Shown: piece by piece, positions 7,100 through 46,609 of the stretch
How the letters are laid out: each line of letters opens with the position of its first letter
How positions within the stretch are numbered: position 1 is the stretch's first letter
Source of the DNA: Xanthomonas bonasiae
GTDB lineage: Bacteria; Pseudomonadota; Gammaproteobacteria; Xanthomonadales; Xanthomonadaceae
Assembly: GCF_017163705.1 (NCBI RefSeq)
Contig: NZ_JAFIWB010000003.1
Span: 1-64,000, forward strand
Length of the DNA: 64,000 bases
Reading direction: 5' to 3'
Translations under genes and position numbers: made by a program
The notes under the pieces: generated by a model
Told to the model about the DNA's origin: nothing
What the model saw: only the letters and a program-made list of their open reading frames with translations
Databases searched by the model: none

Positions 7100-8557
7100 T
7101 CAGGAGGCGTGCGGCAGTTGCACGCCATAGAACGCGCGGAACAGCGCGATACGGTTGAGGATCAGGTCCTGGCGGGCCTGCAGGTGATCCAGGGCGGCCT
7201 GCTCGGCGGCGATGCGTTCGCCGAGCAGCGCGGGGCGATCCTGCAGGCCCTGCGCGACGCGGCGCTGCATGCGTTGGATGCGTTGCCGTTCGCGATCGCG
7301 GTTGGCCCGCTCGCGCTGTTCGCGTTGCTGCAGGGCAGGGCCGGCATCGAGCGCATCGGCCACTTCGCGGAACGCCGATTCGATCGCCTTCTCGTAGTCG
7401 GCGACGCCGGCCTGCTTGCGCAGCTGCGCGATGTCCAGGTTGGCGCGGTTGCGGCCGAAGTCGAAGATCGGCATGGTCAGTTGCGGAACGAAACTCCAGG
7501 TGCGGCTGCCGGCGGCGAACAGGCCGCTGAGCACATCGCTGGCGGTTCCCAGCGAGGTGCTGAGCTTGATCGACGGGAAGAATGCGGCGCGCGCGGCGCC
7601 GATGTCGGCATTGCGCGCGCGCAACTCGGCTTCGGCCTGCTGGATGTCCGGACGCTGCAGCAAGACCGCCGAGTCCAGGTCGCGCAGCGCCATGCTGCCC
7701 GCGTCGGTCGGCAGCACGTCCTCGAGATCGCCGGCGCTGGCCGGTGCGTCGTAGCCGGCGACCAGTTGCAGCGCGCGGCGCGCGGCGGCGTGGTCGCTGG
7801 CCGCCTGCATCGCGCGGACTTGGGCCTGGTCGGTCTGATGGCGCTGGCGGTCGAGCGCGTCGGTGGAGATCAGCCCGACATCGTGCTGGTCGTCGGCGAC
7901 TGCCAACAGCGCGTTGCTGTCGTCGGCGATGGCCTGGAAACGCGCCTGCGCCTGGGCGGCGGCGCGTTCCAGCGTGTAGGTGCGCAACACCTCGGCGACC
8001 AGCGCGCCGCGCGCGGCCTGCTGGCCGGCGCTGGACGCCAGATAGCGCTGCTGCGCGGCAGCGGACAACGCGGCCAGCTTGCCGAACAGATCCAGTTCGA
8101 AATCGTCGACGCCGACCGCGGCGGTGACCAGCTTCTGCCCGTAACGCTCCTGCTGCCGCGGATCGTCGTAGCTCTGCCGGGCCTGCTGCGCATCGATGCC
8201 GAGCTGCGGCAGCTGCTGCGACCGCTCGATCCGGTATTGCGCGCGGGCCTGCTGCACTTGCAGGACGGTGTTGCGGAAGTCCGGATTGTGCGCCAGCGCC
8301 TGCTGCACCAGCGGCGCGAGGTCGTGGGCCGGCGAGAATGCGCGCAGGAACCGCCGTTCCTGCTCCGACAGCGCGACCGCGGGCGCCGCGCTCGCCTGCG
8401 GCAGCGGTGCCGCCGCTGCGCCGCCCAGCGTGCTCGGCACGGCGGCCTGCGGGCGCTGGTAGACCGGCGCCAGCGAGCAGCCGCCGAGCAGCACCGCCAG
8501 CGCGGCGACGAGGAGGCGAGGGCGGTACGGACGCTTGCCTGCGGGCGATACAATCAT
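7100..8557 (-). CDS. RND efflux outer-membrane factor (NodT/OprM-type lipoprotein)
   Basis: 485 residues from the chosen start. Positively charged N terminus, hydrophobic core and lipobox LLGGC, then SLAPVYQRP, the hallmark of NodT-family channels. Two long Ala/Gln-rich alpha-hairpin repeats follow, each with the family motif (YRIERSQQLPQLGIDAQQ in the first, IGAARAAFFPSIKLSTSLG in the second). The protein should form the trimeric TolC-like exit duct of this pump. The start at 8557 is chosen over an upstream in-frame ATG because it gives a clean lipoprotein signal. It is the first gene of the minus-strand operon and faces the response-regulator gene across about 110 bases. Confidence 0.94.
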   Translation of the reverse strand: MIVSPAGKRPYRPRLLVAALAVLLGGCSLAPVYQRPQAAVPSTLGGAAAAPLPQASAAPAVALSEQERRFLRAFSPAHDLAPLVQQALAHNPDFRNTVLQVQQARAQYRIERSQQLPQLGIDAQQARQSYDDPRQQERYGQKLVTAAVGVDDFELDLFGKLAALSAAAQQRYLASSAGQQAARGALVAEVLRTYTLERAAAQAQARFQAIADDSNALLAVADDQHDVGLISTDALDRQRHQTDQAQVRAMQAASDHAAARRALQLVAGYDAPASAGDLEDVLPTDAGSMALRDLDSAVLLQRPDIQQAEAELRARNADIGAARAAFFPSIKLSTSLGTASDVLSGLFAAGSRTWSFVPQLTMPIFDFGRNRANLDIAQLRKQAGVADYEKAIESAFREVADALDAGPALQQREQRERANRDRERQRIQRMQRRVAQGLQDRPALLGERIAAEQAALDHLQARQDLILNRIALFRAFYGVQLPHAS

Positions 8558-8606
8558 GGGGGTCAGTCGGGGTGGCCAATCTCGAGTGATAGAGTCGGCC
8601 GGCAAG

Positions 8607-8645
8607 TTCAAGCTGGCTTCTAGGAATCTTCAAGATTCCGTCAAG
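8607..8645. promoter_or_regulatory. Four hexamers at 11-bp period, likely response-regulator site
   Basis: TTCAAG (8607), TTCTAG (8618), TTCAAG (8629) and GTCAAG (8640) recur at exactly 11 bp in the divergent promoter between the efflux operon and the two-component operon. The third copy also sits in the inverted repeat GGAATC-TTCAA-GATTCC (8623-8639). Tandem direct repeats at one helical turn are typical of OmpR/PhoB-family binding, so the regulator encoded at 8671 is the natural candidate to bind here and control both operons. Confidence 0.6.
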
Positions 8646-8670
8646 ACGCGCGACCAGGGCGGCACAGGGC

Positions 8671-9360
8671 ATGAGTTCCAAGAAGATTCTTGTCGTCGAG
8701 GACGACGCCGACAGCGCCAGCATCCTCGAGGCGTATCTGCGCCGCGACGGATTCGACGTCGCCATCGCCGGCGACGGCGCGCGCGCGATCCAGCTGCATG
8801 CGCAGTGGAAACCGGACCTGGTCCTGCTGGACGTGATGCTGCCCAGGCTGAGCGGCACCGAAGTGCTGTCGACGATCCGCCGCAGCGGCGACACGCCGGT
8901 GATCATGGTGACCGCGATGGGCGACGAGCCGGAGAAGCTCGGCGCGCTGCGCTACGGCGCCGACGACTACGTGGTCAAGCCCTACAGCCCGAAGGAGGTG
9001 GTCGCGCGCGTGTACGCGGTGCTGCGCCGCGCCGGGCCGGCCAGGACGAGCGAGGAACCGCTGAAGTACGAGCGGCTCACCGTCGACACCAACGCGGTGC
9101 TGGCCACGGTGCAGGATGCCGACGGCCACGACGTACCGCTGGACCTGACCCCGACCGAATTCAACATCCTGGCCACCTTGCTGAAGACGCCGTTCAAGGC
9201 CTATACGCGCAGCGAACTGCTGGAAATCTGCCTGCCGGAAAGCGACGCGCTGGAGCGGGTGGTGGACGCTCACGTGCACAACCTGCGCAAGAAGCTGGAG
9301 AGCGAGCGCATCACCGATGTGCTGGTGACAGTGCGCGCGATCGGCTATCGCTTCCGATGA
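8671..9360 (+). CDS. OmpR-family response regulator
   Basis: 229 residues. Receiver domain (about 5-118) with acidic pocket Asp11/Asp12, phosphoacceptor Asp54 in LVLLDVMLP, and the conserved Lys in DDYVVKPYSP. The C-terminal winged helix (about 130-229) includes DLTPTEFNILATL and the VDAHVHNLRKKLE recognition region typical of OmpR/PhoB regulators. Its ATGA stop overlaps the kinase start, so the pair is co-translated. It is divergent from the efflux operon and probably controls it through the 11-bp repeats at 8607-8645. By context it resembles envelope-stress/efflux regulators such as BaeR, but the signal is unknown. Confidence 0.96.
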   Translation: MSSKKILVVEDDADSASILEAYLRRDGFDVAIAGDGARAIQLHAQWKPDLVLLDVMLPRLSGTEVLSTIRRSGDTPVIMVTAMGDEPEKLGALRYGADDYVVKPYSPKEVVARVYAVLRRAGPARTSEEPLKYERLTVDTNAVLATVQDADGHDVPLDLTPTEFNILATLLKTPFKAYTRSELLEICLPESDALERVVDAHVHNLRKKLESERITDVLVTVRAIGYRFR

Positions 9361-10544
9361 AATGGCCGTTCGCCCGGCGCAAGGCACACACGCCGCTGTG
9401 GCGATGGGCGGGCCTGCGCATGAGCGCGCTGGCGGTGGTCGCCATCCTGGCGATCGTGTTCGGCATGTGGCTGCGCTTCGCGATCTGGGACATCCTGACC
9501 CTGCGCCAGATGCCGCCGGCGGCGCGCCAGGAGATGATGGAACTGCGCGAGGATCCGCACAGCAACGAGCAGCGCCTGTGGCAGCTGTTCGCACGCTACT
9601 ACGACGTCGCCGATTTCCTGCCTGGCTTGGCCAGCCGCGACTGGCTGCTGCTGGCGGTGCTGGTCATCGCGTCGATTCCGGTCATCGTGGTGTGCGGGTT
9701 GCTCGCGTCGCGGCCGTTGTCGCGCCAGTTCTCCAATGTGGCCGAGGCCGCCCGGCGCATCAGCGAGGGCGACTTTTCCGCGCGCGCCAAGGTGATCCCC
9801 TCGGCGCCGGACGAACTGGCCAGCTTCGCGATGGACTTCAACGGCATGACCGCGCAGCTGCAGCAGTACGAGCGCGAGGTGCGCGATTCCAGCGCGATGC
9901 TGGCGCACGAACTGCGCACGCCGTTGAACGCGGCGATGGGCCGGGTGCAGGGCATGCTGGACCAGGTCTTCCCGTGCAGCGACGAACAGCTGCAGATGGT
10001 CCATCGCCAGCTGGAGCAGATCAATCGCCTGGTCGGCGACCTGCATCTGCTGTCGATGGCGCGGGCCAATCAGCTGATGCTGGAGCCGCACACCTTTCCG
10101 CTCGACGTGCTGATCCGCGAGCGCCTGGCCTGGCTGGCGCAGCCGCTGCAGGCGGCGCAGATGGAGGTGGAGGTGCGCGTGCCGGGCGGCGTGTCGATCA
10201 GCGCCGACCGCGACCGCATCGGCCAGGTGCTGTCGGTGCTGATCGACAACGCGCTGCGCTATGCCGCGGCCGGCAAGCATCTGCTGATCGAAGTGAGCGC
10301 CGGCGCCAACGACATGCTGATCTGCGTCTGCGACCGCGGCCCGGGCGTGACGCCGGAACTGTTGCCGCGGATGGTCGATCGCTTCTGGCGCGCCGAGGAT
10401 TCGCGTGCCCGGCACTCGGGCGGCAGCGGCCTGGGCCTGTCCATCGCCGCGGCGATCTGCCATGCCCACGGCGGCGCGCTGGAATTCGGCAACCGCGACG
10501 GCGGCGGCTTGTGCGCGCGGGTGCGATTGCCGCGAGTGGCGTAA
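9357..10544 (+). CDS. Sensor histidine kinase, partner of the upstream regulator
   Basis: 395 residues. Two membrane helices (about 22-42 and 96-117) enclose a short periplasmic sensor of roughly 53 residues. A HAMP domain (SRPLSRQFSNVAEAARRIS) follows, then the H box MLAHELRTPL with phosphorylated His184, an N box (VLIDNALRYA), G1 (DRGPGV) and G2 (GGSGLGLS) of the ATPase domain. The start at 9357 overlaps the regulator stop by ATGA and gives the first helix intact. Small sensor size suggests detection in or near the membrane rather than of a large ligand (inference). Confidence 0.95.
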   Translation: MKWPFARRKAHTPLWRWAGLRMSALAVVAILAIVFGMWLRFAIWDILTLRQMPPAARQEMMELREDPHSNEQRLWQLFARYYDVADFLPGLASRDWLLLAVLVIASIPVIVVCGLLASRPLSRQFSNVAEAARRISEGDFSARAKVIPSAPDELASFAMDFNGMTAQLQQYEREVRDSSAMLAHELRTPLNAAMGRVQGMLDQVFPCSDEQLQMVHRQLEQINRLVGDLHLLSMARANQLMLEPHTFPLDVLIRERLAWLAQPLQAAQMEVEVRVPGGVSISADRDRIGQVLSVLIDNALRYAAAGKHLLIEVSAGANDMLICVCDRGPGVTPELLPRMVDRFWRAEDSRARHSGGSGLGLSIAAAICHAHGGALEFGNRDGGGLCARVRLPRVA

Positions 10545-19353: not shown

Positions 19354-19847
19354 AGAGTCTCCTTTGCGATGTCGATGTCCGTTGGTGGCCGGCGACGTGG
19401 TGTGTGCTCCACGATCCACGCGAGGGCGTGGCGGGCGTCGTCCGGCGCGTCGGTAGGATAGGGGGAGGGGGTTAAGGCTTCGTGGGGATGGGAAGGCGCC
19501 GTGGGATTTACGCTTGCGTCACACGCCAGGTATGCGTATCGGATCAATGAGCGGGATCTGGTGATCGTGTGTGTGGTCGGTCGGATAGATGCGACTGGGG
19601 AGGTCTATCGGGGGTAGATGGATCCGGGCAAACAGACTGGAACTAGGGATCATTGTCGGAGTAGCGGTGTGTCTGCTTTGCTCGGAAGCGAACAGATCGC
19701 GCGAATGACATTTTTTCCTGGCAACTCTGCCGCGAAAACGTTGCAACTCGCTGAGGGGGGCATCTTCACCAGCACCCTCAACAACCATGATTTCTGCAGC
19801 TGTCCAACCTCGGCTATCATCCTCCGCAATCTGATGTGAGTACGGAT
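19354..19847. other. 494-base intergenic stretch before the SWIM-MoxR-VWA operon
   Basis: No convincing gene on either strand. It is poorer in GC than its surroundings and holds a copy of the dispersed boundary repeat at 19597-19617 and a related CAGACTGG element near 19632. The promoter of the operon starting at 19848 must lie here; I could not single out a confident -35/-10 pair. Confidence 0.6.
19597..19617 (+). repeat. Dispersed boundary repeat, copy A
   Basis: GGGGAGGTCTATCGGGGGTAG matches the core of the seven-copy family except for a degraded 5-prime end (GATTAGG replaced by CTGGGG). It lies 230 bases before the SWIM-MoxR-VWA operon. Confidence 0.65.
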
Positions 19848-21179
19848 ATGGAAGTGCGACTCACGCGCGAGCAGGTGCTCGCGCTTGCGCCTGATGCATC
19901 GTCAAGCAAGGCGGCCGGTGGTCTGGCCACAGACGGAAAGTGGGGCCTGCTCGGCGCCGACGCCGAAGCCCTGTGGGGTGAATGCCAAGGCAGCGGCGCC
20001 AAGCCATACCAGACCCAGGTGGAGCTGACCACGCTGGTGAGCCGTTGCTCGTGTCCCAGCCGCAAGTTCCCTTGCAAGCATGGCCTGGCCTTGATGCTGC
20101 TGTATGCCGCCGGCAACCCGCGCTGCGTGCCGAGCGAGCGCCCGGCCTGGGTGGACGAGTGGATGCAGGGCCGCCGTGCCCGTGCGGTCCGGAAGGAGGA
20201 AGCCGCCGCCAGCGTGTCCCCGCCGGATCCGCAGGCGCAGGCGGCCGCTGCCGCCAAGCGCGAACAGGCACGCTGGTCGCGCATGGAAGCCGGCGCGGCA
20301 GAACTGCAGCGCTGGGTGGCCGACCAGTTCCGCCAGGGGCTGGCCAACCTGGGCGCGGGCTTCGAGCAGGAAGCGCAGCGCATGATGGCGCGCATGGTGG
20401 ATGCCCAGGCCCCGGGACTGGCCAGCCAACTGGAACGAGCGCTGGGCGAGGGCGGGCGCGACCTCGCCCAGCTGGCCGAACTGGGCGAATGCCTGGGGCT
20501 GTTGCAGCTGCTCACCCAGGCGGTGCCCCGCATGGAAACCTTCAGCGCTGCGCGTCAGGCGGACCTGCGCACTGCACTGGGCTGGCCGATGGAGCGCGAA
20601 GCGGTGCAGCGGCAGGGCGAGACCGTGCGCGATCGTTGGCACGTGCAGGGTCAACACATGATCGAACATCCGGGCAACTTGATGGAACGCCGCGTGTGGC
20701 TGCACGGGCTGGAAAGCGGGCGGGCCGCGCTGCTGCAGGACTACAGCCACGGTGGGCGCGGTTGGGAACAGCACTGGCGCAACGGCCACGTTCATGCGGG
20801 CACTCTGCATTTCCACGCCGGCACGGTACCGCTGCGCGCGGTGCCGGGCGAAGTGGAAGCGGGGATGGACGCCGCTACGGCGCCGCCGCGCGAAGACACG
20901 CTGGACGCCGCCGCGCAGGCGTACGCCACCAACCCATGGCTGCCGCAGGTGCCCATGCGCCTGGGAGTGGCGCATGTGGCACACGATGGCCGCAACGCCT
21001 GGGTACAGCACGCCGAAGGCACGCTGCCGCTTCGGCTGTCGCCGATGCAGGGCTGGGCGCTGATGGCATTTGCCGGTGGCCACCCGCTGTGCCTGATGGG
21101 CGAGTGGGATGGCCAGGCGTTGCTGCCACTTGCCGCATGGAACGCGCCGGGCGAGCGCTGGGAAAGGAGCGGGGCATGA
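19848..21179 (+). CDS. SWIM zinc-finger protein (operon gene 1)
   Basis: 443 residues. The SWIM motif is intact: Cys67-x-Cys69 and Cys76-x-His78 within SRCSCPSRKFPCKHGLALML, expected to bind zinc and DNA or protein. The rest is helical, with long Gln/Arg/Ala-rich segments (about 120-200) and a beta-rich C-terminal half. ATG 19848 is chosen; a GTG four codons upstream is possible. It starts a five-gene operon whose other genes encode a DUF5691-like protein, a MoxR ATPase, a DUF5682-like protein and a VWA protein; the stop overlaps the next start by ATGA. It probably acts as a nucleic-acid or partner-recognition subunit (inference). Confidence 0.88.
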   Translation: MEVRLTREQVLALAPDASSSKAAGGLATDGKWGLLGADAEALWGECQGSGAKPYQTQVELTTLVSRCSCPSRKFPCKHGLALMLLYAAGNPRCVPSERPAWVDEWMQGRRARAVRKEEAAASVSPPDPQAQAAAAAKREQARWSRMEAGAAELQRWVADQFRQGLANLGAGFEQEAQRMMARMVDAQAPGLASQLERALGEGGRDLAQLAELGECLGLLQLLTQAVPRMETFSAARQADLRTALGWPMEREAVQRQGETVRDRWHVQGQHMIEHPGNLMERRVWLHGLESGRAALLQDYSHGGRGWEQHWRNGHVHAGTLHFHAGTVPLRAVPGEVEAGMDAATAPPREDTLDAAAQAYATNPWLPQVPMRLGVAHVAHDGRNAWVQHAEGTLPLRLSPMQGWALMAFAGGHPLCLMGEWDGQALLPLAAWNAPGERWERSGA

Positions 21180-22702
21180 ACGAGGCATGGTTGAAGCCGG
21201 CCCTGCTGGGCATAGACCGCGCGCAGGCCATCCCCGCCGAAGGCGCGCTGGGCGAAGTGCTCGCCGCCGTGGCCACGCAGGAAGACGCCGCACTGGGCTA
21301 CAGCCGGCAGGTGGGCGTCCTGGCGGCCTGCCGGCGCGCCGCCTTGCGCATGGCCGCGCCGGTGGCCCTGCCGCCGCCTGCGGAGGTCGATCCTCTGGTG
21401 CTGCCCGCCGGTCACGCCTGGGCACCGCTGTTGAAGGGACTATTCAGCGCTGCACAGCCGTCGCCGTGGATGAAGCGCACCCGTTACGAGGCCTGCGCGC
21501 AGCTGGCCGCACACAATCTGCACCTGCCGGTGGCGGTGTTGCCGCAGGCGCTGGAAGCCGGTGTGCGCCTGAGCGCGCTGCGTCCCGGCCTGCGCCCGGT
21601 GCTGGGTGTGCGCGGCCGCTGGCTGGCGGCCTGCAATACAGACTGGGCCTACGCGGCAGAGACGGCGGTCGAAGCGGATGCACCGGCGGACCTGGAGCAG
21701 ATGTGGAACGAAGGCGCGTTTGATGCGCGCCTGTTGGCCTTCCGGCGACTGCGTGCGCACAACCCCGAGGACGCCCGCGCGCGCCTGCAGGGCACGTTGA
21801 AAGACCTCTCCGCGCGCGAGCGGGTGGACTTCGTCGCTGCGCTGCAGCCGCAGCTGAGCGAGGCCGACGCGCCGCTGCTGCAGCCCCTGTTGAAGGACCG
21901 CAGCCGCGAGGTGCGCCTGCTGGCGGGCCCGATGCTGGCCCGGCTGCCGTCCACGCCGCACGCGCAGTACGTGCAGGCGCAGATGCGCGCTTTGCTGCGG
22001 CACCAGCCCGCCGGGCTGATGCGCCGTACGACCTGGACGCTGGAAGCCCCCGCGGCGGCCGATGCCGGCTGGGCCGACGCCGCCATCGACAGCAAGCGCC
22101 CCAACAACGACATGCTGGGTGAGCGTGCCTGGTGGCTCTATCAGCTGGCGCGCCAGCTGCCGCTGGCCTGGTGGTGCCATACCCTGGAAAAAGCGCCAGC
22201 GCAGGTACTGGCCTGGGCGCGCAGCACGGACTGGTACGACGCGCTGTTGCGCGCCTGCCTGGAGCGTGTGGACGCCAGCGAACCAGAATGGGTGGAAGCC
22301 CTCATCGGTGTGGAGCAACGGCATATGAGCCTGGGCGACCTGCTGGCCATGCTCCCGCCGACGCAACGCGAACGGCATTGGCCCACCAGTGCGACCGAGC
22401 TTCAACAAAAGCGCCTGTTCGGCGAAGTGCTGGACAGCACGGGCCTTGGCCAGACTCTCAGCGCGGCCTACTCGCGGCAATTGGCTGCCGGGCTGGGCGC
22501 GCTGTTTGGCGAAGAGTCCCTGCGTCATGACTACACCCTGCGCGACGCGCTGCTGGAACTGTTGGCGGTGCTTCACCCCTCCGCACTGTCGCAGGTGCAG
22601 GTGGCCGACGCACCGGCCGACGCCACCGAGGCCATGCGCGACTGCGTGCACCAGGCACGCCAACTTCTGGCCTTGCGCCAGGCCCTGCATTCCGCTTTCT
22701 AA
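21176..22702 (+). CDS. DUF5691-like helical-repeat protein (operon gene 2)
   Basis: 508 residues, no signal peptide or membrane helix. The sequence is almost wholly helical and looks like an alpha-solenoid, with HEAT-like pieces such as LQPLLKDRSREVRLLAGPML. In similar operons this position is held by DUF5691 proteins; I assign it by length, helical character and gene order, not by a diagnostic motif. Its start overlaps the stop of the SWIM gene by 4 bases. Likely a scaffold linking the ATPase to the other subunits (inference). Confidence 0.8.
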   Translation: MNEAWLKPALLGIDRAQAIPAEGALGEVLAAVATQEDAALGYSRQVGVLAACRRAALRMAAPVALPPPAEVDPLVLPAGHAWAPLLKGLFSAAQPSPWMKRTRYEACAQLAAHNLHLPVAVLPQALEAGVRLSALRPGLRPVLGVRGRWLAACNTDWAYAAETAVEADAPADLEQMWNEGAFDARLLAFRRLRAHNPEDARARLQGTLKDLSARERVDFVAALQPQLSEADAPLLQPLLKDRSREVRLLAGPMLARLPSTPHAQYVQAQMRALLRHQPAGLMRRTTWTLEAPAAADAGWADAAIDSKRPNNDMLGERAWWLYQLARQLPLAWWCHTLEKAPAQVLAWARSTDWYDALLRACLERVDASEPEWVEALIGVEQRHMSLGDLLAMLPPTQRERHWPTSATELQQKRLFGEVLDSTGLGQTLSAAYSRQLAAGLGALFGEESLRHDYTLRDALLELLAVLHPSALSQVQVADAPADATEAMRDCVHQARQLLALRQALHSAF

Positions 22703-22729
22703 TCATCACGACCTTTCATTGGAGCCAAC

Positions 22730-23812
22730 ATGAGCACTGCCGTCCTGCGCCAGCACGCCGAACAGCAATACGCGGAAGAATTGGAAGAACTGCGTCGCCA
22801 GGACACCCGCCAGCGCCCGGCCAACTGGATCCTCTCGCCGTGGGCGGTGGTGACCTATCTGTTGGGCGGCACGCTGGAAAACGGCTTTGTGGTCAGCCCC
22901 AAGTACATCGGCGACCGGCGCCTGATGGAAGTGGCCGTGGCCACCATCGCCACCGACCGCGCCCTGTTGCTGTTCGGGGTGCCGGGCACGGCCAAGTCGT
23001 GGGTGTCCGAGCACATGACCGCGGCCATCAGCGGCGATTCCACCCTGCTGGTGCAAGGCACAGCCGGTACCAGCGAAGAGCAGATCCGCTACGGCTGGAA
23101 CTACGCGCAACTGTTGGCCAATGGCCCCAGCGAGAAAGCGCTGGTGCCCAGCCCGCTGATGAACGCCATGCGCCTGGGCAAGATCGCGCGCATCGAAGAA
23201 CTCACCCGGATTCCGGCGGATGTGCAGGACGCGCTGATCACCGTGCTTTCCGAAAAGACCCTGCCGGTGCCGGAGCTGGGCAGCGAAGTGCAGGCCGTGC
23301 GCGGCTTCAGCGTGATTGCCACGGCCAACAACCGCGACAAGGGCGTGAACGAGCTTTCCAGCGCGCTCAAGCGCCGCTTCAACACGGTGATCCTGCCGGT
23401 GCCGTCCAGCGAGGAGGACGAAGTGGCCATCGTGGTCAAGCGCGTGGCCGAAATGGGCGTGGCGCTGGAGCTGCCGGCCGAACCGCCGGCGCTGCAGGAA
23501 GTCGCCCGGGTGGTACGCATTTTCCGCGAGCTGCGCAACGGCGTTACCGAAGACGGCAAGGCCAAGCTGAAGAGTCCCACCGCCACGCTTTCGACCGCCG
23601 AGGTCATTTCGGTGATCAACAACGGCATGGCCCTGGCCGGCCACTTCGGCGACGGCGTGCTGCGCCCGGGCGACATGGCCGCCGGCATGATCGGTGCCAT
23701 CGTCAAGGATCCGGTGCAGGACGCGCTGGTGTGGAAGGAATATCTGGAAACCGTGGTGAAGGAACGCGACGACTGGAAAGACCTGTACCGCGCGTTCCGC
23801 GAGCACGTCTGA
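22730..23812 (+). CDS. MoxR-type AAA+ ATPase (operon gene 3)
   Basis: 360 residues. Walker A is LLFGVPGTAKSW (Gly83 to Ser90). The Walker B/sensor region contains ARIEELTRIPADVQDALITVLSEK, then sensor 1 in FSVIATANNRDKG, and the arginine finger region SALKRRFNTV. These fit the MoxR/RavA group of helix-2-insert AAA+ proteins, which typically act with a VWA protein as a chaperone or remodeller. Both partners are present in this operon. An upstream sequence GGAGCC precedes the ATG, 27 bases after the previous gene. Confidence 0.93.
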   Translation: MSTAVLRQHAEQQYAEELEELRRQDTRQRPANWILSPWAVVTYLLGGTLENGFVVSPKYIGDRRLMEVAVATIATDRALLLFGVPGTAKSWVSEHMTAAISGDSTLLVQGTAGTSEEQIRYGWNYAQLLANGPSEKALVPSPLMNAMRLGKIARIEELTRIPADVQDALITVLSEKTLPVPELGSEVQAVRGFSVIATANNRDKGVNELSSALKRRFNTVILPVPSSEEDEVAIVVKRVAEMGVALELPAEPPALQEVARVVRIFRELRNGVTEDGKAKLKSPTATLSTAEVISVINNGMALAGHFGDGVLRPGDMAAGMIGAIVKDPVQDALVWKEYLETVVKERDDWKDLYRAFREHV

Positions 23813-23825
23813 GCGGCCCGCGCCA

Positions 23826-26144
23826 ATGAGCGAAGGCATCTCCCTTTTCGGCATCCGCCACCACGGCCCGGGCTGCGCACGCAGCCTGCTGGCGGCGCTG
23901 GCGGCGCTGCAGCCGGACTGCGTGTTGATTGAAGGCCCGGCGGGGACCGAGGCGCTGCTGCCGCACGTGTTGGAGGCGGGCATGCAGCCGCCGGTGGCGT
24001 TGCTTTCCTATAGCGTGGACGACCCGCAGCTGGCTGTGTTCCATCCCTATGCGCTGTACTCGCCGGAATGGCAGGCCATGCGCTGGGCGCTGCGCAACGG
24101 CGTGCCGGTGCGCTTCATCGACGTGCCCCCGGCGCTGACACTGGAATGGCAGGCGCAGGCCCGCGCGGACCGCACGGTGCCGGAGGCGGCCGAGGCGCTG
24201 GACGCAGCGGATGGAGCAGCGGTGCAGCCCCACGGCGACGCCGGATCTGCCGCTGAAGAAGACGCCGAAGCGCGCCCGACCGATCCACTGGACTGGCTGG
24301 CGCGCGCCGCCGGCCACGCCGACGGCGAGGCCTGGTGGAACCACATGGTGGAAGAGCGGGGCAACGGGCAGGGGCTGTTCGACGCCATTGCCGAGGCCAT
24401 GGCCGCCGTGCGCGAGCACGCGCCGGAACACCCCGGCCTGCGCGGCGAGCACGAGGCCGTGCGCGAGGCGCACATGCGCACCGCACTACGCAGCGCCAGC
24501 AAGGAATTCGCGCGCGTTGCCGTCGTGTGCGGGGCCTGGCACGTGCCGGCCCTGCAGCCGGCCGCCCTGCGCGCCAACAGCGCCACCGCAGACAACCGCC
24601 TGCTCAAGGGCATGCCCAAGCGCAAGACGCAGAGCACCTGGGTGCCGTGGACCTACCGCCATCTGAGTGCCGAAAGCGGCTACGGTGCCGGCGTGGACGC
24701 GCCAGGTTGGTACGACTACCTGTGGCGCAACGCCGGCGCGCACGACCAGCGCAGCGTGGGCTGGTACGCCCGCGTGGGCCGGTTGCTGCGCGAGCACGGG
24801 CTGGATTGCTCCCCGGCCCATCTCATTGAAGCCACGCGCCTGGCCGACACCCTGGCCGCGCTTCGCGGCCATCCTTCGCCGGGGCTGGAAGACATTGCCG
24901 AAGCCAGCCGCGCCGTCATCTGCAATGGCGACGACGCGCCCATGCGGCTCATCCGCGAACGCCTCATGGTGGGCGACGCGCTGGGCCAGGTGCCCGAAAG
25001 CGTGCCGGTGGTACCGCTGCAGCGCGACCTGGAAGCCCAGCAGAAACGCTTGCGCCTGAAACCCGAGGCGCTGGAAAAGACCCTGGATCTGGACCTGCGC
25101 AAGGAGAACGACCTGGCGCGAAGCCACCTGCTGCACCGCTTGCGGCTGATCGGCGTCGAATGGGGCAGGCTTGCGCGCACGGGGCATTCCGTACGCGGCA
25201 CCTTCCACGAGGTCTGGCAGTTGGCATGGCAGCCGCACTTCCTGGTCGATCTGGTGGAGGCGAGCCGCCACGGGCAGACCCTGCGGGACGCCGCTTCCAG
25301 CAAGGCCATCGCGCAGGCGCGCAAGGCCGAAGCGTTGCCGGAACTTTCCGGACTGGTGGACCAGGTGCTGCTGGCCGATCTGCCGCAGGCGGTGCGCGCC
25401 ATTGCCGCCGAGCTGGAGGCGCGCGCAGCCACGGATGCCGATCCGCTGGCCCTGCTCGGCGCACTGCCGCCGCTGGCCAACATCCACCGCTACGGCAATG
25501 TGCGTCAGACCGAGGGCGTGCAGGTGGCGCACCTGTTCGACAGCATGCTGGAACGTGCGGTCATCGGCCTGACGCTGGCCCTTTCCAGCCTGGACGAAGT
25601 GCGCGCCGAACAGGCGCGCACCGTGGTGCTGGACGCCGACCGCGCCATTGGACTGCGTGACGACGCAGACGGCAGCGCCGGTTGGCAGCATGCGTTGCAG
25701 CGGGTGGCGCTGTCGTCTTCGTGCAGCGCGCTGCTGCGCGGCGTTGCGCTGCGCTTGCTGTTCGACACCCAGGCGGTGGAGGCCGAACTGGTGCACGTGC
25801 AGCTGCAGCAGCAGCTGTCGCCGGGTGCCGAGCCGCTGCAAGCCGCGCAGTGGCTGGATGGCTTCCTCAACCGAAACGCCACCGTGCTGCTGCACGATGA
25901 TGCGGTGTGGCGGATGATCGACGCATGGGTGGTGGCGCTGGACGAGGCGCAGCTGGTGCGCGTGCTGCCGCTGGTACGGCGTACCTTCGCGGCCTTCGAG
26001 GCCGCCGATCGCCGTGACCTGGGCACCCGCGTGAAGCGGGCCCCTGTGCAGAAACCCGTGGCCGTGCTGGCCCCGGATTGGGATGCGGCACGCGCCGAAC
26101 GCGCGTTGCCGATGCTGCGTGAACTGCTCGGGCTGCCCGCATGA
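23826..26144 (+). CDS. DUF5682-like protein with TraB/TIKI-like motifs (operon gene 4)
   Basis: 772 residues, cytoplasmic. The N-terminal domain begins FGIRHHGPGCARSL (His12, His13), continues with DCVLIEGPAG (Glu36), and near residue 240 has VAVVCGAWHVPAL, preceded by EAHMRTALR. This His...Glu...Arg...GxxH spacing resembles the TraB/PrgY/TIKI and erythromycin-esterase-like hydrolase superfamily (my inference from motifs). The remaining 500 residues are helical and unassigned. It is 13 bases from the MoxR gene and overlaps the VWA gene by ATGA. In a MoxR-VWA set this is the best candidate for the catalytic or effector subunit. Confidence 0.82.
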   Translation: MSEGISLFGIRHHGPGCARSLLAALAALQPDCVLIEGPAGTEALLPHVLEAGMQPPVALLSYSVDDPQLAVFHPYALYSPEWQAMRWALRNGVPVRFIDVPPALTLEWQAQARADRTVPEAAEALDAADGAAVQPHGDAGSAAEEDAEARPTDPLDWLARAAGHADGEAWWNHMVEERGNGQGLFDAIAEAMAAVREHAPEHPGLRGEHEAVREAHMRTALRSASKEFARVAVVCGAWHVPALQPAALRANSATADNRLLKGMPKRKTQSTWVPWTYRHLSAESGYGAGVDAPGWYDYLWRNAGAHDQRSVGWYARVGRLLREHGLDCSPAHLIEATRLADTLAALRGHPSPGLEDIAEASRAVICNGDDAPMRLIRERLMVGDALGQVPESVPVVPLQRDLEAQQKRLRLKPEALEKTLDLDLRKENDLARSHLLHRLRLIGVEWGRLARTGHSVRGTFHEVWQLAWQPHFLVDLVEASRHGQTLRDAASSKAIAQARKAEALPELSGLVDQVLLADLPQAVRAIAAELEARAATDADPLALLGALPPLANIHRYGNVRQTEGVQVAHLFDSMLERAVIGLTLALSSLDEVRAEQARTVVLDADRAIGLRDDADGSAGWQHALQRVALSSSCSALLRGVALRLLFDTQAVEAELVHVQLQQQLSPGAEPLQAAQWLDGFLNRNATVLLHDDAVWRMIDAWVVALDEAQLVRVLPLVRRTFAAFEAADRRDLGTRVKRAPVQKPVAVLAPDWDAARAERALPMLRELLGLPA

Positions 26145-27322
26145 CCGATACCACCGACGCATTGGACACCCCCACCTCGCGCGAGCAGCGCTGGCGATTG
26201 ATTCTGGGCCAGGAGGCCGATCGCAGCTGCGGCGCGTTGCCCCAGAGCCTGCAGGGCATCGACCAGGCCCTGGCCGCGCTGTACGAGCCCGATGGCCCCG
26301 GCGGCCTGGGTCGCCGCGGTGGGCGTGGGGCGTCCTCCCCGAATGTGGCCCGCTGGCTGGGCGACATCCGCCGCTATTTCCCGTCATCCGTGGTCCAGGT
26401 GATGCAGCGCGACGCCCTGCAGCGGCTGGACCTCACCCAGATGCTGCTGGAAAAGGAAATGCTGGAGCAGGTGCAGCCGGACGTGCACATGGTGGCCAAC
26501 CTGATCGGCCTGAGCCGGGTGATTCCGACAGAGACCAGGGAAACCGCACGCATGGTGGTGCGCAAGGTGGTGGACGACCTGCTGCGCCAACTCGAGGAAC
26601 CCATGCGCTCTGCAGTGACCGGTGCACTGGACCGCGCCCGCCGCAACCGCCGCCCGCGCCTGGCCGAGATCGACTGGCACCGCACCATCCGCAGCAACCT
26701 GCGCCACTGGCAGCCGGAACTGCGCACCGTGGTACCGCAGGAGTTGGTGGGCTATGGCCGCAAGGCCAGAAAGCCGCAGCGGGAAGTGCTGCTGTGCATC
26801 GACCAGAGCGGTTCCATGGCGGCATCGGTGGTGTATTCGAGCATCTTCGGCGCGGTGATGGCCTCGTTGCCGGCGGTGGCCACCCGCCTGGTGGTGTTCG
26901 ACACCGAAGTGGTGGACATGAGCGAGCAGCTGGACGATCCGGTGGATCTGCTGTTCGGCGTGCAACTGGGCGGCGGCACCGATATCCACCGCGCGGTGAG
27001 CTACTGCCAGGGCATCATCCGTGAACCGCACAACGCCATCCTGGTGCTCATCTCCGACCTGTACGAGGGCGGGGTGGAAGACAACCTGCTGGCCCGCGCA
27101 CGCGAGCTGCTGGAGGCAGGCGTGCAGTTCATCGTGCTGCTGGCACTCAGCGACGAAGGTGCGCCGTCCTACGATCGAACCTTGGCCGGCAAGCTGGCGG
27201 CACTGGGCGTACCGTCGTTCGCCTGCACGCCGGATGCATTTCCGGGGCTGATGGCCGCTGCGATCCGCCGCGATGACATCAACCAATGGGCAGGCGGGCA
27301 GGGGCTGTTGACGACGCGTTGA
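26141..27322 (+). CDS. VWA-domain protein (operon gene 5)
   Basis: 393 residues. The N-terminal 200 residues are helical. The von Willebrand factor A domain (about 210-390) carries a complete metal site: LLCIDQSGSMAAS (Asp221, Ser223, Ser225), the Thr in GGGTDIHRAV and the Asp in VLISDLYEGG. It is the standard partner of MoxR ATPases and probably couples ATP hydrolysis to a target. It is the last gene of the operon and is followed within 70 bases by another boundary repeat. Confidence 0.92.
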   Translation: MTDTTDALDTPTSREQRWRLILGQEADRSCGALPQSLQGIDQALAALYEPDGPGGLGRRGGRGASSPNVARWLGDIRRYFPSSVVQVMQRDALQRLDLTQMLLEKEMLEQVQPDVHMVANLIGLSRVIPTETRETARMVVRKVVDDLLRQLEEPMRSAVTGALDRARRNRRPRLAEIDWHRTIRSNLRHWQPELRTVVPQELVGYGRKARKPQREVLLCIDQSGSMAASVVYSSIFGAVMASLPAVATRLVVFDTEVVDMSEQLDDPVDLLFGVQLGGGTDIHRAVSYCQGIIREPHNAILVLISDLYEGGVEDNLLARARELLEAGVQFIVLLALSDEGAPSYDRTLAGKLAALGVPSFACTPDAFPGLMAAAIRRDDINQWAGGQGLLTTR

Positions 27323-38965: not shown

Positions 38966-39466
38966 TAAAGCAGGCATGTCCCGCTCCCGTCCGGGAGCGC
39001 ACCAAATCGGGCAGAGAGATTAGGGAGCGTTATCGGGGGTAGGGCACATGGCAGCTACCGACCCGAAGCGGACATGACGGCCTCCACCAAAGGTTGCTGG
39101 CCGGCACCTACTGCGCCTGGAGGTCGACCGGAAGCAGTTGTGGGCTGTAATCAACGTGACGGTAGCGGGCCATAACATTCCCTTGCCGTGATGGATCGGG
39201 TGTAGCAGCATGGGCAAGGTCTTCTTCAGCTTCGTTCGGCGCAATCCTCCCAATTTAGTCGGCCCTGGGAGTTCTGCCAGCGCTCAGCCAAAGAAGGCCG
39301 CGTAGCCGGCGCGGCTGTGAGGTAGATTGACGGCATCCCAGTATCCGGGTCTTGTCGACGCCGGCGGCCGCAGCGACGCGCTCATGGCGCTGAATCCGCC
39401 CGCACACCACCACGCCGACAGGCGCAAAAAACACGGCGCTAATGCCGCGACGCGGCATCACCCACG
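38966..39466. other. 501-base intergenic stretch with repeat copy D
   Basis: Contains an inverted repeat GCTCCCG/CGGGAGC near 38983, the boundary repeat (39018-39043), and a linked element CTACCGACCCGAAGCGG (39054) that recurs near copy G. No gene supported on either strand. Confidence 0.55.
39018..39043 (+). repeat. Dispersed boundary repeat, copy D
   Basis: GATTAGGGAGCG followed by TTATCGGGGGTAGG; a near-perfect family member. It lies at the left edge of the DUF418-TetR module. Confidence 0.8.
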
Positions 39467-41926: not shown

Positions 41927-42001
41927 TCCGGGGTAGTTCAGCGGCAGAACACTCGGCTGTTAACCGGGAGGGCGCTGGTTCGAATCCAGCCCCCGGACCC
42001 A
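41927..42001 (+). tRNA. tRNA-Asn (GTT), atypical 3-prime end
   Basis: Acceptor stem TCCGGGG (41927-41933) pairs with CCCCGGA (41991-41997). D stem GTTC/GAAC, anticodon GTT at 41959-41961 in CTGTTAA, T arm GCTGG-TTCGAAT-CCAGC. The base after the acceptor stem is C instead of the G usual for tRNA-Asn, then CCA. The D loop is short. It may be a functional second copy or a partial copy produced at an integration site. Confidence 0.75.
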
Positions 42002-42026
42002 CCGCTTCGCAATATCGACAGCACGC

Positions 42027-44339
42027 ATGACTTCAGATCGAAGCAGCGGTTCGAGCACATCGCCCGGATTCAACTACGCGCGCTTCCAGTTGGCGAAGGC
42101 GCTGGACACCACGGAACATCACCCGGATTCGCAGGCGCGGTTACGCGCTGGCGTCCGTGCGGAACGCTGGATGCATGTACTTGAGCATGTGCTGATGGAA
42201 ACAGCGCACTATGGTTCCCGCACGCCGTTCGCGGATGTCCCCGCATGGGCGACACTGGAGGTTAACACCGGTGGTTTCGCCACTGGTCGTCTGCTCGCCG
42301 GCGGTGAATTAACCGCGTACGAACGCGAGCTGTCCAAGAGGGTGGTGCACGTCAGCGCCGATCAGGTACGGTTTGACTTGAATCTCTGGCATCTGACCGA
42401 GGCCGGCCTCGATCACCTGCAGCGCATGCTCACGGAAGGTAGCTACAGTATCGATCTGCCCGAAGAGGCGGCGCTGCCGATGGTCGCGTGGCTCGTCGGC
42501 CAGGGCCGCATCGAGCAGGCGCAAACGATCATTGAAGCGATCGCGCCGTTTTTCGACAGATTGCGGTTCTTTCCGGCGCGTATCGATGGCACATCCCCTT
42601 TGTCCGCCGAAGTCAGCATCTTCACCGCTAGCGATGTTCGGCAATGTCTGTCGGAACTGGGTGCACAACGCAGGCTAGCGGCGCAGAAGTGGTCGATCGA
42701 GATCCGTTTGCCTCTTTACGACGCGACGATCTCGCTGTTTCTCGATACCTACGTCGATGGCTGGCCGTGCCGCCGTTTTCCGGAAGACTGGCAAGCGTCG
42801 GCCAAGGCATTGTTGACGCGGATCAGTGACGCTCGGGCCGATGGTCATGGTGACCTCACGAGGCGGAGAGACCGGGTGACTGAGGCGTTCGCGCTCTTGG
42901 CCGCGTGTGCTGACGATCCGGCCACGCTTACCGGGCGCCAAGTCGGCCGGATTCGCAGGATCGTCGACGATTTCGTTGAGGCACACGGCAGGCCCGATTC
43001 GTCAGGGCACCTTGCCTTCCGGCAGCAGCAACAGCGCGACGTGGCCTCGGCGGCACACCACCGTATCGGTCATGCCGTCGCTGCGAGACTGGCGGCATAT
43101 CCCCCATCAGAAGGCATCGCCGACTTCTCTGCGTTGTCAGCCCCGATCAACGAAGACGAGGCTGCGACGTTCGGTATCGAACCGGACCAGCAGTTGCCGG
43201 ATCCGGTTCGATACCGTCTGGAACGGTGCCGTCGCGGCACGATCGCCGAATTGGTCGATGCCGGCATCGTCACGTCGGGCGACACGATCGCTCGCGTGCT
43301 TCCGGTGTTGATTGCCGAGATCCGTAGCAGCGAATTGGCCAACCCGACACTGCGTTGTCTGTACGCTGCGACCTATCGCGCTTTCCGGAGGCGGCGGTCG
43401 CTGCTGCTGCTCAACCTCGAAGGCCAGGTGCGCCTGAACGAGTTGCCTTGGATCTCAGTGGTCGATGGCGATCGTAATGCCGACACCGTTACCGCGGGTG
43501 CCGCACGCGCGGCCCTGATCGAATCGGCTTCGATGGTGATCTCGGCCTTTCCGCACGCTATTACTCCCAACAAGCTGGTCAGAGAGTTCCGCGTCCTCGC
43601 TGATGGCGCGAAGTTGAAGCTGCCTTTCGTCGATGAGATCGCGACCGATATCTTCACGGGCGAGTTCACCAACACATATATCGAAGCCGCGCGATTCGCA
43701 GCCCAGGTCATTGCGGGAACGCTGTATGCCGACTATTACAATATCGACACCGATGCACTGGCCGTTCTCCCTGACAGGCTCAAGGCCGAGACCAAGCGAA
43801 ATGGGTGGAGCAGGGCAAACGATTCCACAGATGCGCTATCGACCTTGGCTGCGCGGCGCGCCAACGCTTCATCGGGTGGATGGAGTCCAGCGATCAACGG
43901 CACCATCCTTGAGCAGGTCCAGATCCTGACGACGCACAACCTTGCGGTCCTGTTCGACGGCGCCGGACTTCGCGCCATGTTGCGTCCAACGCTGGATGCG
44001 ATCGCGCTCCAGAGCTTCCAGTGGATATGCAGACGCCAGCAGATGCAGATCCCACATTGGCATGCCCAACTGATCATGGTCAAGAACACGGCGTATGCGT
44101 GGAGACAGATGCTTTTCTTTCTATCGATGCTCGACGATGCCCGTAGGCGGGTGGCGATCGCGCGCATTGAAGCGCATTTCTACGAACAACCTAACACGTT
44201 CAGGTCGCGCTTCGAGCCCGTTATGTGTGGCCTTCGGCTGGCCGCAGAAGGACGGCGGCTGCCTCAACACGAGACTGGACCCAATGGCGCAAGGGTCTTC
44301 AAAGGCTGGACGACCGAACGACACTGGCTGGCTTCCTGA
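42027..44339 (+). CDS. Large hypothetical protein beside tRNA-Asn
   Basis: 770 residues, no signal peptide or membrane helix, mostly helical with mixed strands. I do not recognise the family. Noticeable segments are ALEVNTGGFATGRLLA near residue 75-90, a basic RRRRSLLLLNLEGQVRLNELPW near 445-470, and an acidic central part. A Gly-Gly-Phe motif of this kind also occurs in large uncharacterised actinobacterial proteins (memory only). It begins 25 bases after tRNA-Asn and is the first gene of an accessory stretch that includes a GIY-YIG protein and CBASS, which makes a defence or mobile-element role possible but unproven. Confidence 0.8.
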   Translation: MTSDRSSGSSTSPGFNYARFQLAKALDTTEHHPDSQARLRAGVRAERWMHVLEHVLMETAHYGSRTPFADVPAWATLEVNTGGFATGRLLAGGELTAYERELSKRVVHVSADQVRFDLNLWHLTEAGLDHLQRMLTEGSYSIDLPEEAALPMVAWLVGQGRIEQAQTIIEAIAPFFDRLRFFPARIDGTSPLSAEVSIFTASDVRQCLSELGAQRRLAAQKWSIEIRLPLYDATISLFLDTYVDGWPCRRFPEDWQASAKALLTRISDARADGHGDLTRRRDRVTEAFALLAACADDPATLTGRQVGRIRRIVDDFVEAHGRPDSSGHLAFRQQQQRDVASAAHHRIGHAVAARLAAYPPSEGIADFSALSAPINEDEAATFGIEPDQQLPDPVRYRLERCRRGTIAELVDAGIVTSGDTIARVLPVLIAEIRSSELANPTLRCLYAATYRAFRRRRSLLLLNLEGQVRLNELPWISVVDGDRNADTVTAGAARAALIESASMVISAFPHAITPNKLVREFRVLADGAKLKLPFVDEIATDIFTGEFTNTYIEAARFAAQVIAGTLYADYYNIDTDALAVLPDRLKAETKRNGWSRANDSTDALSTLAARRANASSGGWSPAINGTILEQVQILTTHNLAVLFDGAGLRAMLRPTLDAIALQSFQWICRRQQMQIPHWHAQLIMVKNTAYAWRQMLFFLSMLDDARRRVAIARIEAHFYEQPNTFRSRFEPVMCGLRLAAEGRRLPQHETGPNGARVFKGWTTERHWLAS

Positions 44340-44526
44340 GCGCTGTAGCCAGGAACTTGGACAAACCAAGTGCTCACTGGATGAACAACAAGATGTACCG
44401 GCGTTTTGGTCACCGGCCTTACCTGGGCAGGGAGTACCGCTGCGGCTCAGCTTGGCTGAGGAGAATTCAGCAGGCCCACATGGTGGGCATACCGTGTGAT
44501 CTGACTGCATTGAAGCGGACGTCAAT

Positions 44527-44928
44527 ATGACAGACCTTCTGAGTTCAACAATTCGATCTTCGCCCATTACCATCTACGTGCTGGCGCTTGAGAACGGTTG
44601 CTACTACGTTGGACAATCATGCAAGTTCGTCGAACGAATTGCTGCTCACTTCCAGGGAAAGGGATCTGCCTGGACGCAGCGACATTCACCCGTTGCTGTG
44701 TTGTGCGCCAAGACGGTTAGAACGCGCGATTGGAAGGTTGCTGAGCAATTTGAGAACAGGCTTACTCTGTTCTTGATGTCTAAGCACGGTTGGCAGAAGG
44801 TGCGTGGTGGCTTCTGGTCGAATGTGTGCGAGCGATCCACCAGTGGCGGCCTAGTGCACCACCGGAAGGCGTACATCCTCAACCAAAACCCCCAGTGCAA
44901 AAAAAGGCATGTAGAGCTTCTGGATTAG
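44527..44928 (+). CDS. GIY-YIG nuclease-like protein
   Basis: 133 residues. ITIYVLALENGCYYVGQS is a GIY-YIG motif (Ile16-Tyr17-Val18 and Tyr27-Val28-Gly29), followed by the conserved Arg in ERIAAHF and a possible catalytic Glu in AEQFENRLT. The domain is of usual length. It could be a stand-alone nuclease of a mobile element or defence set. The last codon and stop (GATTAG) are supplied by a copy of the dispersed repeat, so the C terminus may have been reshaped. Confidence 0.8.
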   Translation: MTDLLSSTIRSSPITIYVLALENGCYYVGQSCKFVERIAAHFQGKGSAWTQRHSPVAVLCAKTVRTRDWKVAEQFENRLTLFLMSKHGWQKVRGGFWSNVCERSTSGGLVHHRKAYILNQNPQCKKRHVELLD

Positions 44929-44948
44929 GGGTGTTTATCGGGGGTAGG
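44923..44948 (+). repeat. Dispersed boundary repeat, copy F
   Basis: GATTAGGGGTGT followed by TTATCGGGGGTAGG. Its first six bases are the last sense codon and stop codon of the GIY-YIG gene. Confidence 0.8.
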
Positions 44949-45020
44949 GTAGATCGCCTCACAACCGGCCTTAACGCCATGTGTCTGGCAAACTTGAAAG
45001 TTGCGTCTGGAGGACGCGTG

Positions 45021-45959
45021 TCATTTGATCGCGCGACTGAGCTCTCTTTTGATCGGGCGCAAGTGTTCTGACGAGTTGTACCACCCACTCTTCTGTTGGT
45101 TTATCTCGTCAAAAGCTTGCCTTAGTTTACAAATAACTTGAGGATTATTCAGTTGGAGCGTCAGGGTCGCGTGCTGGCTAAGGATTGCCGGCGACTCGAA
45201 GTCGCTTCTTGGACCCATCGGCAGGGCCTCAAAAGCTCGCTGAACTAGGTCGCCAGAGCCGGCCCCTTGCGTTCCGTCAGCACAAAATCCAGCACCGGCC
45301 GCGAAAACAATGAGACGTAGACAGCGAGGGAGGTACAGACTTTGGTCGTGATCCGAATCACTCAAGACCGATACTAACTGCAAGAAGCCATAGGCACACA
45401 TGGAAGGCTTCTCGTCAGCTCTGATCTGGCACAACGCTGCGATCTCTTCATCATCGAGCCAAGTCCAGAGAAGTGTTCCGCCAACGTAATCCGCATGCGT
45501 TTCTTGGCCAAGCGAGGATGGCATCTTCAAGTGTCCAGCAAAGACGTGAATAATCTCATGGCCATACGCAGCCAGCACGGCGACGATAGTCGACGAAAGG
45601 AGATAGTCGGAAGCTTCTTTCGGCGGCATACCTCCTCGAGTCGGCGTGATCTCAAGCAGCCTGCCAACAAAGGATATTGGAATTGAGATGCGATATGCCT
45701 CGCCATCGCCTACCTGGGTAGCCATCGGTAGCGCTGATCTGTCGGCGGTCAGTCTGGGGATGAAGTTATATTTCAAGGACTCCGCAACTTGAGAAAGAGC
45801 CTTGCGTGCAGCCAAACGCATGGCCCTGTCGGCCGCCTTGCAGATTGTCTGAATGACCTCAAACTCGAGATCGCTCAAGTGCGAGCCTGCCTCTACCCGA
45901 TACTGTTTAAGATTCGACTCAAGTTCGTCTTTCGATGGCTTTAAGTTCGAAGTACTCAT
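45021..45959 (-). CDS. Putative HExxH zinc metallopeptidase
   Basis: 312 residues. HEIIH at 134-138 (AAYGHEIIHVFAGH) with a downstream ETHADYVGG (Glu153, Asp157) matches the gluzincin layout of HExxH plus a downstream Glu/Asp ligand. No signal peptide or membrane helix is obvious. Family not recognised beyond the motif. It stands alone between two copies of the boundary repeat, in a region of defence-like genes. The chosen ATG is the first of the frame and gives a polar N terminus. Confidence 0.75.
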   Translation of the reverse strand: MSTSNLKPSKDELESNLKQYRVEAGSHLSDLEFEVIQTICKAADRAMRLAARKALSQVAESLKYNFIPRLTADRSALPMATQVGDGEAYRISIPISFVGRLLEITPTRGGMPPKEASDYLLSSTIVAVLAAYGHEIIHVFAGHLKMPSSLGQETHADYVGGTLLWTWLDDEEIAALCQIRADEKPSMCAYGFLQLVSVLSDSDHDQSLYLPRCLRLIVFAAGAGFCADGTQGAGSGDLVQRAFEALPMGPRSDFESPAILSQHATLTLQLNNPQVICKLRQAFDEINQQKSGWYNSSEHLRPIKRELSRAIK

Positions 45960-46155
45960 CCGGATATCAACCGTTTGTGGGTGCAGTCGTTGCTATGGAG
46001 CTGATCCAGCTAGTCACTAGCGTATCAAAAAATGCCAATAAAAGGCGCATGAGTAGTTGGAGGAAGATCGAATCACCGCCGATGATTACCACTCAAGACC
46101 AGTCATTGGTATGCGGTAGCTGGCAGCCGAGCACGGCCTCAAACGTGAAGAAGCA
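45960..46155. other. Short intergenic stretch without recognised gene
   Basis: Lies upstream of the metallopeptidase gene. No coding frame on either strand is convincing. It should contain that gene's promoter on the minus strand. Confidence 0.5.
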
Positions 46156-46180
46156 GATTAAGAGGATTTATCGGGGGTGG
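46156..46180 (+). repeat. Dispersed boundary repeat, copy G
   Basis: GATTAAGAGGAT followed by TTATCGGGGGTGG. It is followed by CTTCCGACCCATAGCGG, which pairs with the same element after copy D. It stands at the left edge of the integron-like cassette region. Confidence 0.78.
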
Positions 46181-46234
46181 GTTAGGGCGGCTTCCGACCC
46201 ATAGCGGCCATTGATGCGGCCGCCGAGCCTGCCG

Positions 46235-46376: not shown

Positions 46377-46387
46377 GCAAGATTGTC

Positions 46388-46546: not shown

Positions 46547-46609
46547 GCAGTCGAGGTTGTTGAGGCTGGTTGGGTAGGCAAATCAATGGGCCCACAGGAT
46601 GCTTGCGGC

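Follow-up and report, generated by a model that had tools for sequence, protein, structure and literature searches.

MoxR-type AAA+ ATPases are paired with VWA proteins in NorQ–NorD, CbbQ–CbbO, CoxD–CoxE and RavA–ViaA, and several of the known pairs adjoin the genes of their clients. For NorQ–NorD, a model of ring, adaptor and client is given in PMC9976466 and in section 8 of PMC7159879. MoxR–vWA ternary conflict systems, in which MoxR, VWA and a third component are encoded together, have also been described (Kaur et al. 2020, PMC7159879), and YehL is among the MoxR subfamilies enumerated in PMC3893208 and PMC11834572. Here, we analyse a 64,000-nucleotide stretch of Xanthomonas bonasiae (contig NZ_JAFIWB010000003.1, positions 1 to 64,000 of the forward strand; hereafter the window), in which five open reading frames (ORFs) on one strand, at 19848-27322 (+), encode a SWIM, a DUF5691, a MoxR, a DUF5682 and a VWA protein. 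Judged by sequence similarity, this operon is a five-gene cousin of Escherichia coli yehL-yehM-yehP-yehQ, with the YehL/YehM/YehP set as its core. Our main addition is evidence for a probable TraB/TIKI-type hydrolase domain at the start of DUF5682.

The MoxR, DUF5682 and VWA genes follow the same order in E. coli K-12, where YehL (41% identity over 350 residues), YehM (26%) and YehP (34%) are their counterparts, and in both the window and E. coli the YehL-type ATPase has a VWA partner in its operon. The E. coli cluster also holds a SWIM protein, but at the 3′ end and resembling the window SWIM protein only around the zinc finger; unlike the window, it has no DUF5691 and carries WGR and DUF4132 genes upstream. 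Among the groups compared, the window MoxR protein is closer to YehL than to NorQ (distant, E 2.2e-6) or RavA (no significant alignment), which assigns it by similarity to the YehL subfamily. Among solved structures, it matches midasin best (E 1.3e-15 over ~90 residues), and the window VWA protein is weakly similar to ViaA (E 4e-7). As in the four named pairs, a MoxR AAA+ protein is joined to a VWA protein with an intact metal site, but no known client gene lies alongside. The operon shares with the ternary conflict systems the joint encoding of MoxR, VWA and a third component, which here is DUF5682; the text of PMC7159879 does not mention SWIM, YehL, TraB, TIKI or EreA. Pfam finds no VMAP, iSTAND, FtsH or beta-propeller domain in the five proteins, no VMAP profile having been tried, and none of the five matches a PADLOC profile. 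A preliminary description of this DNA had put the system forward as a candidate undescribed one. This is partly true: we found no function for the yehL/yehM/yehP/yehQ set in the literature searched, nor any mention there of DUF5682 or DUF5691, but E. coli has the related yehLMPQ set and the YehL subfamily is published.

In a second DUF5682 branch, the YehM type, to which E. coli belongs, MoxR, DUF5682 and VWA are followed by a SWIM protein of another kind. We took 12 of the 14 YehM-type matches from the family and phylum searches with their flanks. All three core genes are present at every one of these loci, and they are adjacent at 11 and in E. coli; at L042, a DUF4132 gene stands between MoxR and DUF5682. 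A SWIM-like protein lies downstream at 11 loci, and the twelfth, L038, ends at a contig end. DUF4132 genes lie beside or inside the module at 11 of the 12 loci (not L038) and in E. coli, with a WGR-like part in four of the 11, and they also occur at four Bacteroidota window-type loci; the background rate is 1 in 80 phylum genomes. A search of the window genome found no DUF4132. Of 5426 E. coli genomes, 5301 match the yeh operon, 5162 of them across 80% or more of its length. The genome-reduced strain DGF-298 is nevertheless missing the stretch from molR′ to yehQ and beyond (PMC10652928), which makes these genes dispensable there. As a separate observation, three consecutive DUF4132-like ORFs lie upstream of one YehM-type module (L043, 12295-19869).

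To compare DUF5682 with known hydrolases, we aligned 98 DUF5682 sequences against 12 TraB proteins carrying the G..H/G.GH motif. The latter were drawn from 25 loci found with the TraB/PrgY/GumN Pfam model, the other 13 being GumN-type. The two alignments match in hhalign with a probability of 93.4, an E-value of 2.4e-7 and a score of 67.7, compared with 23.7 for the best of 60 column-shuffled controls and 28.0 for the reversed alignment. Among 28 family pairs, DUF5682–TraB and SWIM–SWIM are the only significant ones once a SWIM–DUF5691 artefact (below) is set aside. The match is collinear over residues 3-279 and pairs GIRH(12)H with GTAH, LIE(36)G with VEL, FID(99) with LID, R(213)EAHM with RDRYM and CGAWH(239) with GAGH. 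H12, H13 and E36 are each found in 97 of the 98 DUF5682 sequences (one gap), and D99, R213, E214 and H239 in all 98. Moreover, a DUF5682-profile search of 149 family genomes returned 14 sub-threshold matches, all of them TraB/PrgY-type proteins with twin GX2H motifs.

DUF5682 resembles TraB/PrgY and the TIKI superfamily in these twin GX2H motifs, in a Glu 24 residues past the first His, a spacing also found in 10 of the 12 TraB proteins, and in an Arg 26 residues before the second His. PMC6254334 describes a 2His/2Glu-type site in TIKI proteases, along with a basic residue that is also conserved. In DUF5682, the Arg, two His and one Glu in the position expected are all near-invariant, whereas the Glu that lies two residues before the first His in the TIKI protease of that source is absent from both DUF5682 and the TraB proteins. 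DUF5682 further differs from TraB/TIKI proteins in its ~490 additional C-terminal residues, in having RHH where TraB has a single His, and in its tie to MoxR–VWA. The preliminary description had pointed to HHGPG, LIEGP and CGAWHVP motifs spaced like those of TraB/TIKI-type hydrolases; the motifs are present in the protein, and the profile comparison and residue conservation support the proposed domain. We conclude that the N-terminus of DUF5682 (~3-279) is probably related, remotely, to TraB/TIKI-type hydrolases.

DUF5682 also turns up under viral labels. A 14-kb phage record titled ‘Bacteriophage sp.’ (MT835988.1, 10650-12755) holds a relative with 26% identity over 94% of the query, and among PHROGs families, 30700 and 31592 have matches to DUF5682 and VWA. 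The record may be mislabelled bacterial DNA.

The SWIM, MoxR and VWA proteins retain the residues that we take to be their zinc-finger, ATPase and metal-site motifs, and the preliminary reading of these sites as intact extends to nearly every aligned relative. SWIM Cys71/Cys73/Cys80/His82 (447-residue numbering) are kept in 76 of 76. The MoxR Walker A, the EE that replaces the Walker B DE, the sensor Asn and the arginines are kept in 97 of 97, except A88 (96) and S90 (93). In VWA, D221/S223/S225 and D306 are kept in 96 of 96 and T280 in 94. Against seven same-genus genomes, all five genes are free of stops, with ratios of non-synonymous to synonymous substitution rates (dN/dS) of 0.05-0.26; purifying selection is strongest on MoxR (0.05-0.07) and weakest on DUF5691 (0.20-0.26), which evolves faster than the other four. 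For DUF5691, a profile search of the PDB gave no match up to E 1. Its profile similarity to DUF4132 is weak (12.7%) and was not used as support. Single-protein SWIM–DUF5691 fusions occur at two loci (L068, 4500-7778; L097, 4794-7727), which suggests that the two proteins may act together. The profile similarity between SWIM and DUF5691 was rejected as an artefact because the SWIM alignment includes the two fusion proteins and the DUF5691 alignment excludes them.

Five-gene operon in the window, with Pfam matches
Feature	Coordinates	Strand	Description
SWIM zinc-finger protein	19848..21179	+	443 aa, ATG start; Pfam SWIM 2.7e-6, above cut-off
DUF5691 protein	21176..22702	+	508 aa; Pfam DUF5691 1.4e-86
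MoxR-type AAA+ ATPase, YehL-like	22730..23812	+	360 aa; Pfam AAA_5 1.1e-37
DUF5682 protein	23826..26144	+	772 aa; Pfam 9e-248; probable TraB/TIKI-like domain ~3-279, remainder uncharacterised
VWA (CoxE-type) protein	26141..27322	+	393 aa; Pfam VWA_CoxE 1.8e-49; metal-site motif intact

The layout agrees with the preliminary description, which had given five co-oriented genes with two ATGA overlaps and a 13-base gap. From 5′ to 3′ the junctions measure -4 (ATGA overlap), +27, +13 and -4 (ATGA overlap) bases, the +27 being the junction left unspecified, and all five family names stand, with every Pfam match above cut-off. An alternative GTG start at 19836 is possible for the SWIM gene and would give 447 residues. 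NCBIfam returned no specific model for the five proteins, with weak AAA matches below cut-off, and a promoter and terminator scan of the operon gave nothing informative. The window genome has one DUF5682 gene.

A scan of genomes with nine window-type DUF5682 query proteins yielded at least 589 candidate stretches, in which at least 575 relatives were verified, and the best 80 loci were kept. These 80 are skewed to the window type because they are the best rows of a scan with window-type queries. Their record titles place them in Pseudomonadota, Cyanobacteriota, Chloroflexota, Planctomycetota, Verrucomicrobiota, Bacteroidota, Actinomycetota, Acidobacteriota and others, and the top-ranked named relative among the matches listed is Lysobacter sp. 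yr284. The gene order of the window is found in 66 of the best 80, across at least eight phyla: 63 carry all five genes in window order on a single strand, L095 recovers the order when domain positions are read, and L068 and L097 are the fusion loci. Contig ends cut seven of the 80 (L069, L070, L098, L106, L108, L124, L127), five cyanobacterial loci are without some of the five genes nearby (L076, L078, L086, L093, L100), L107 is a rearranged module, and the SWIM gene was not seen at the L114 locus. In all four cyanobacterial genomes tested that lack VWA beside DUF5682, a VWA gene with 60-64% identity lies elsewhere in the genome. Pairwise distances of the five genes correlate across 68 loci (r 0.74-0.93; none of the 499 permutations run for each pair exceeded 0.22), a pattern that fits joint inheritance but equally plain vertical descent. 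The operon is real, widespread and under purifying selection.

We propose, with a probability of about 0.5, that the operon encodes a dedicated MoxR–VWA remodelling machine built round a DUF5682 hydrolase, in which SWIM and DUF5691 would act as a pair for recognition or scaffolding. By analogy with NorQ–NorD and other MoxR–VWA pairs, the MoxR protein would form an ATPase ring and the VWA protein would serve as the adaptor, gripping the client via its metal site. DUF5682, in presumed physical contact with MoxR–VWA, would be the catalytic third component, its N-terminal TraB/TIKI-type domain likely cleaving peptide or ester bonds. A SWIM–DUF5691 sub-complex may bring the substrate, a protein or nucleic-acid complex, to the hydrolase, and ATP turnover could act on the hydrolase by opening, loading or switching it, or by supplying it with remodelled substrate. 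What the sequences show directly is the conserved gene set and order, the intact active-site-type residues, the purifying selection, the TraB profile relation and the SWIM–DUF5691 fusions. If true, the work of MoxR–VWA motors, known so far chiefly as chaperones for cofactor insertion and assembly, would extend to driving a hydrolase of the TIKI type. The proposal gives putative roles to two Pfam families of unknown function, DUF5682 and DUF5691, and a testable biochemical hypothesis for an operon of nearly every E. coli.

Several observations weigh against this reading. The link from the hydrolase to MoxR–VWA rests on gene order, and correlated distances are also expected from plain vertical descent. 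DUF5682 shows no similarity (1.2%) to GumN, a branch of the Pfam family that also holds TraB, although the TraB–GumN comparison reaches 98.8%, and hhalign to TraB falls to 52% with window-type sequences alone and 78% with YehM-type alone. A single-sequence Pfam search of DUF5682 gave no TraB match even at E 10, and a PDB profile search returned no TIKI-fold protein, its helical chance matches reaching E 0.018 at best. The sole sub-threshold match of the phylum search (L028) is without the TraB motif, and picking the 12 TraB proteins by motif from 25 loci leans the comparison slightly towards a match. A bolder form of the proposal holds that DUF5682–MoxR–VWA would be a new ATP-gated protease or esterase of TIKI/TraB fold, opened or fed by MoxR–VWA and aimed by SWIM, DUF5691 or WGR/DUF4132, present in at least eight phyla, near-universal in E. 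coli and tied to DNA damage on the E. coli branch. We regard it as speculative and rather doubtful.

The same genes could instead form a cofactor-insertion or assembly chaperone, in which MoxR–VWA matures a client encoded elsewhere, as NorQ–NorD and CoxD–CoxE do, and DUF5682 is a non-catalytic carrier of a cofactor or metal. ChaN is a carrier of this kind with the same fold class as the TIKI type, and the best Pfam model of the window VWA protein is VWA_CoxE. Most characterised MoxR–VWA pairs are described as such chaperones in PMC3893208, PMC9976466 and PMC7159879. Yet, where several known pairs adjoin their client genes, the most frequent cluster of neighbours beyond the operon itself occurs here in only 10 of 88 window-type loci, and the hydrolase motifs have near-invariant His, Glu and Arg, as in an enzyme; we consider this explanation unlikely. 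Equally improbable to us as an explanation in itself, but combinable with the remodelling machine, is the induced processing of proteins or protein–DNA complexes upon DNA damage or stress, in which the E. coli branch, with WGR/DUF4132, would belong to the SOS response and SWIM/WGR would find the damage. Here the excess of DUF4132 at YehM-type modules over the phylum background is joined by the listing of molR (yehF) as LexA-regulated or SOS (PMC11039860, PMC3978071), by yehF transcript values of 0.80 to 1.14, units not seen, over the last four time points (PMC11002266), and by the rise of a Deinococcus radiodurans DUF4132 operon and a WGR gene upon DdrO depletion (PMC8533742). Those D. radiodurans genes are not up in irradiated cells without IrrE, however, and the available text names no MoxR, VWA or SWIM gene among them (PMC8533742). 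The SOS data concern yehF, with yehL-yehQ several genes downstream and behind a gap, and the window genome is without DUF4132. The DNA-damage link is thus one by association, on the E. coli branch only.

An anti-phage or conflict system related to the MoxR–vWA ternary conflict systems would account for the patchy presence of the operon: a window-type MoxR gene is found in 8 of 20 genus genomes, and DUF5682, counting both types, in 7 of the 149 genomes searched for the family and 14 of the 398 for the phylum. In one species (G578; L175, 14468-16466), an abortive-infection-like pair of an AbiLi/AriA-like AAA ATPase and a RloB-like gene lies 0.4 kb downstream of the module, and three of eight module-free genomes keep both flanks with other genes between them. 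We searched the nearest-neighbour ORFs of 54 loci (107 of 108, one dropped for size) and control ORFs from other parts of carrier genomes (88 of 91, leaving out the three longest) against PADLOC. Among the matches listed, which cover 25 of 35 PADLOC families for the nearest neighbours, there are seven names, with each family in one ORF; the control ORFs have matches to three families, of which two are WYL. In the range down to E 1.2e-20, over which the comparison is complete, this amounts to seven names in 107 ORFs versus one, WYL, in 88 (Fisher p 0.075, counting one ORF per name), a hint of defence-type neighbours that falls short of significance, with ORF counts approximated from family names. 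The lack of any PADLOC match in the operon itself and the near-universal yeh operon of E. coli speak against defence, as do purifying selection on all five genes and the failure to see a variable effector, so we hold this explanation to be distinctly unlikely. For the physiological role, we lean slightly towards stress or DNA-damage processing rather than phage defence.

The block common to the window and the seven other same-genus carriers is almost precisely the operon itself, starting at about 19.7-19.8 kb and ending at about 27.3-27.4 kb, and the genes around it differ. Two of these carriers, L171 and L172, have left-flank DNA in common with the window as well. In G578, G580 and G006, the module lies 0.5-0.8 kb from a homologue of window 8001-10533. 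We compared eight module-free genomes that have this homologue. Three of them (G576, G085, G058) retain the right flank too, with 6-9 kb of other DNA between the flanks in place of the module, and the remaining five match on the left only. The site-filling genes are metabolic or regulatory in one module-free species, and four ORFs scanned in a second species gave no Pfam match. Given the differing neighbours and the flanks with other DNA between them, the 7.5-kb block therefore occupies a variable chromosomal locus, at which gain and loss are not told apart.

The preliminary description had also placed the operon between two copies of a dispersed repeat, as a portable module would be. Copies resembling the repeat are indeed present near 19605 and 27402, but few relatives have them beside the module: of seven same-genus loci searched up to 600 bases from it, none has the left copy and two have something similar to the right one, and a portable module defined by flanking repeats was rejected. 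The 12-base core, TATCGGGGGTAG, has three exact copies in the genome, all of them inside the window and in the same orientation (19606-19617, 39031-39042 and 44936-44947). Elsewhere in the window, short dispersed repeat copies cluster at 39018, 41735 and 44923, and a tRNA-Asn gene at 41927-42001 is followed by a fall in G+C to 0.54-0.63 (41927-56000), possibly a tRNA-borne island.

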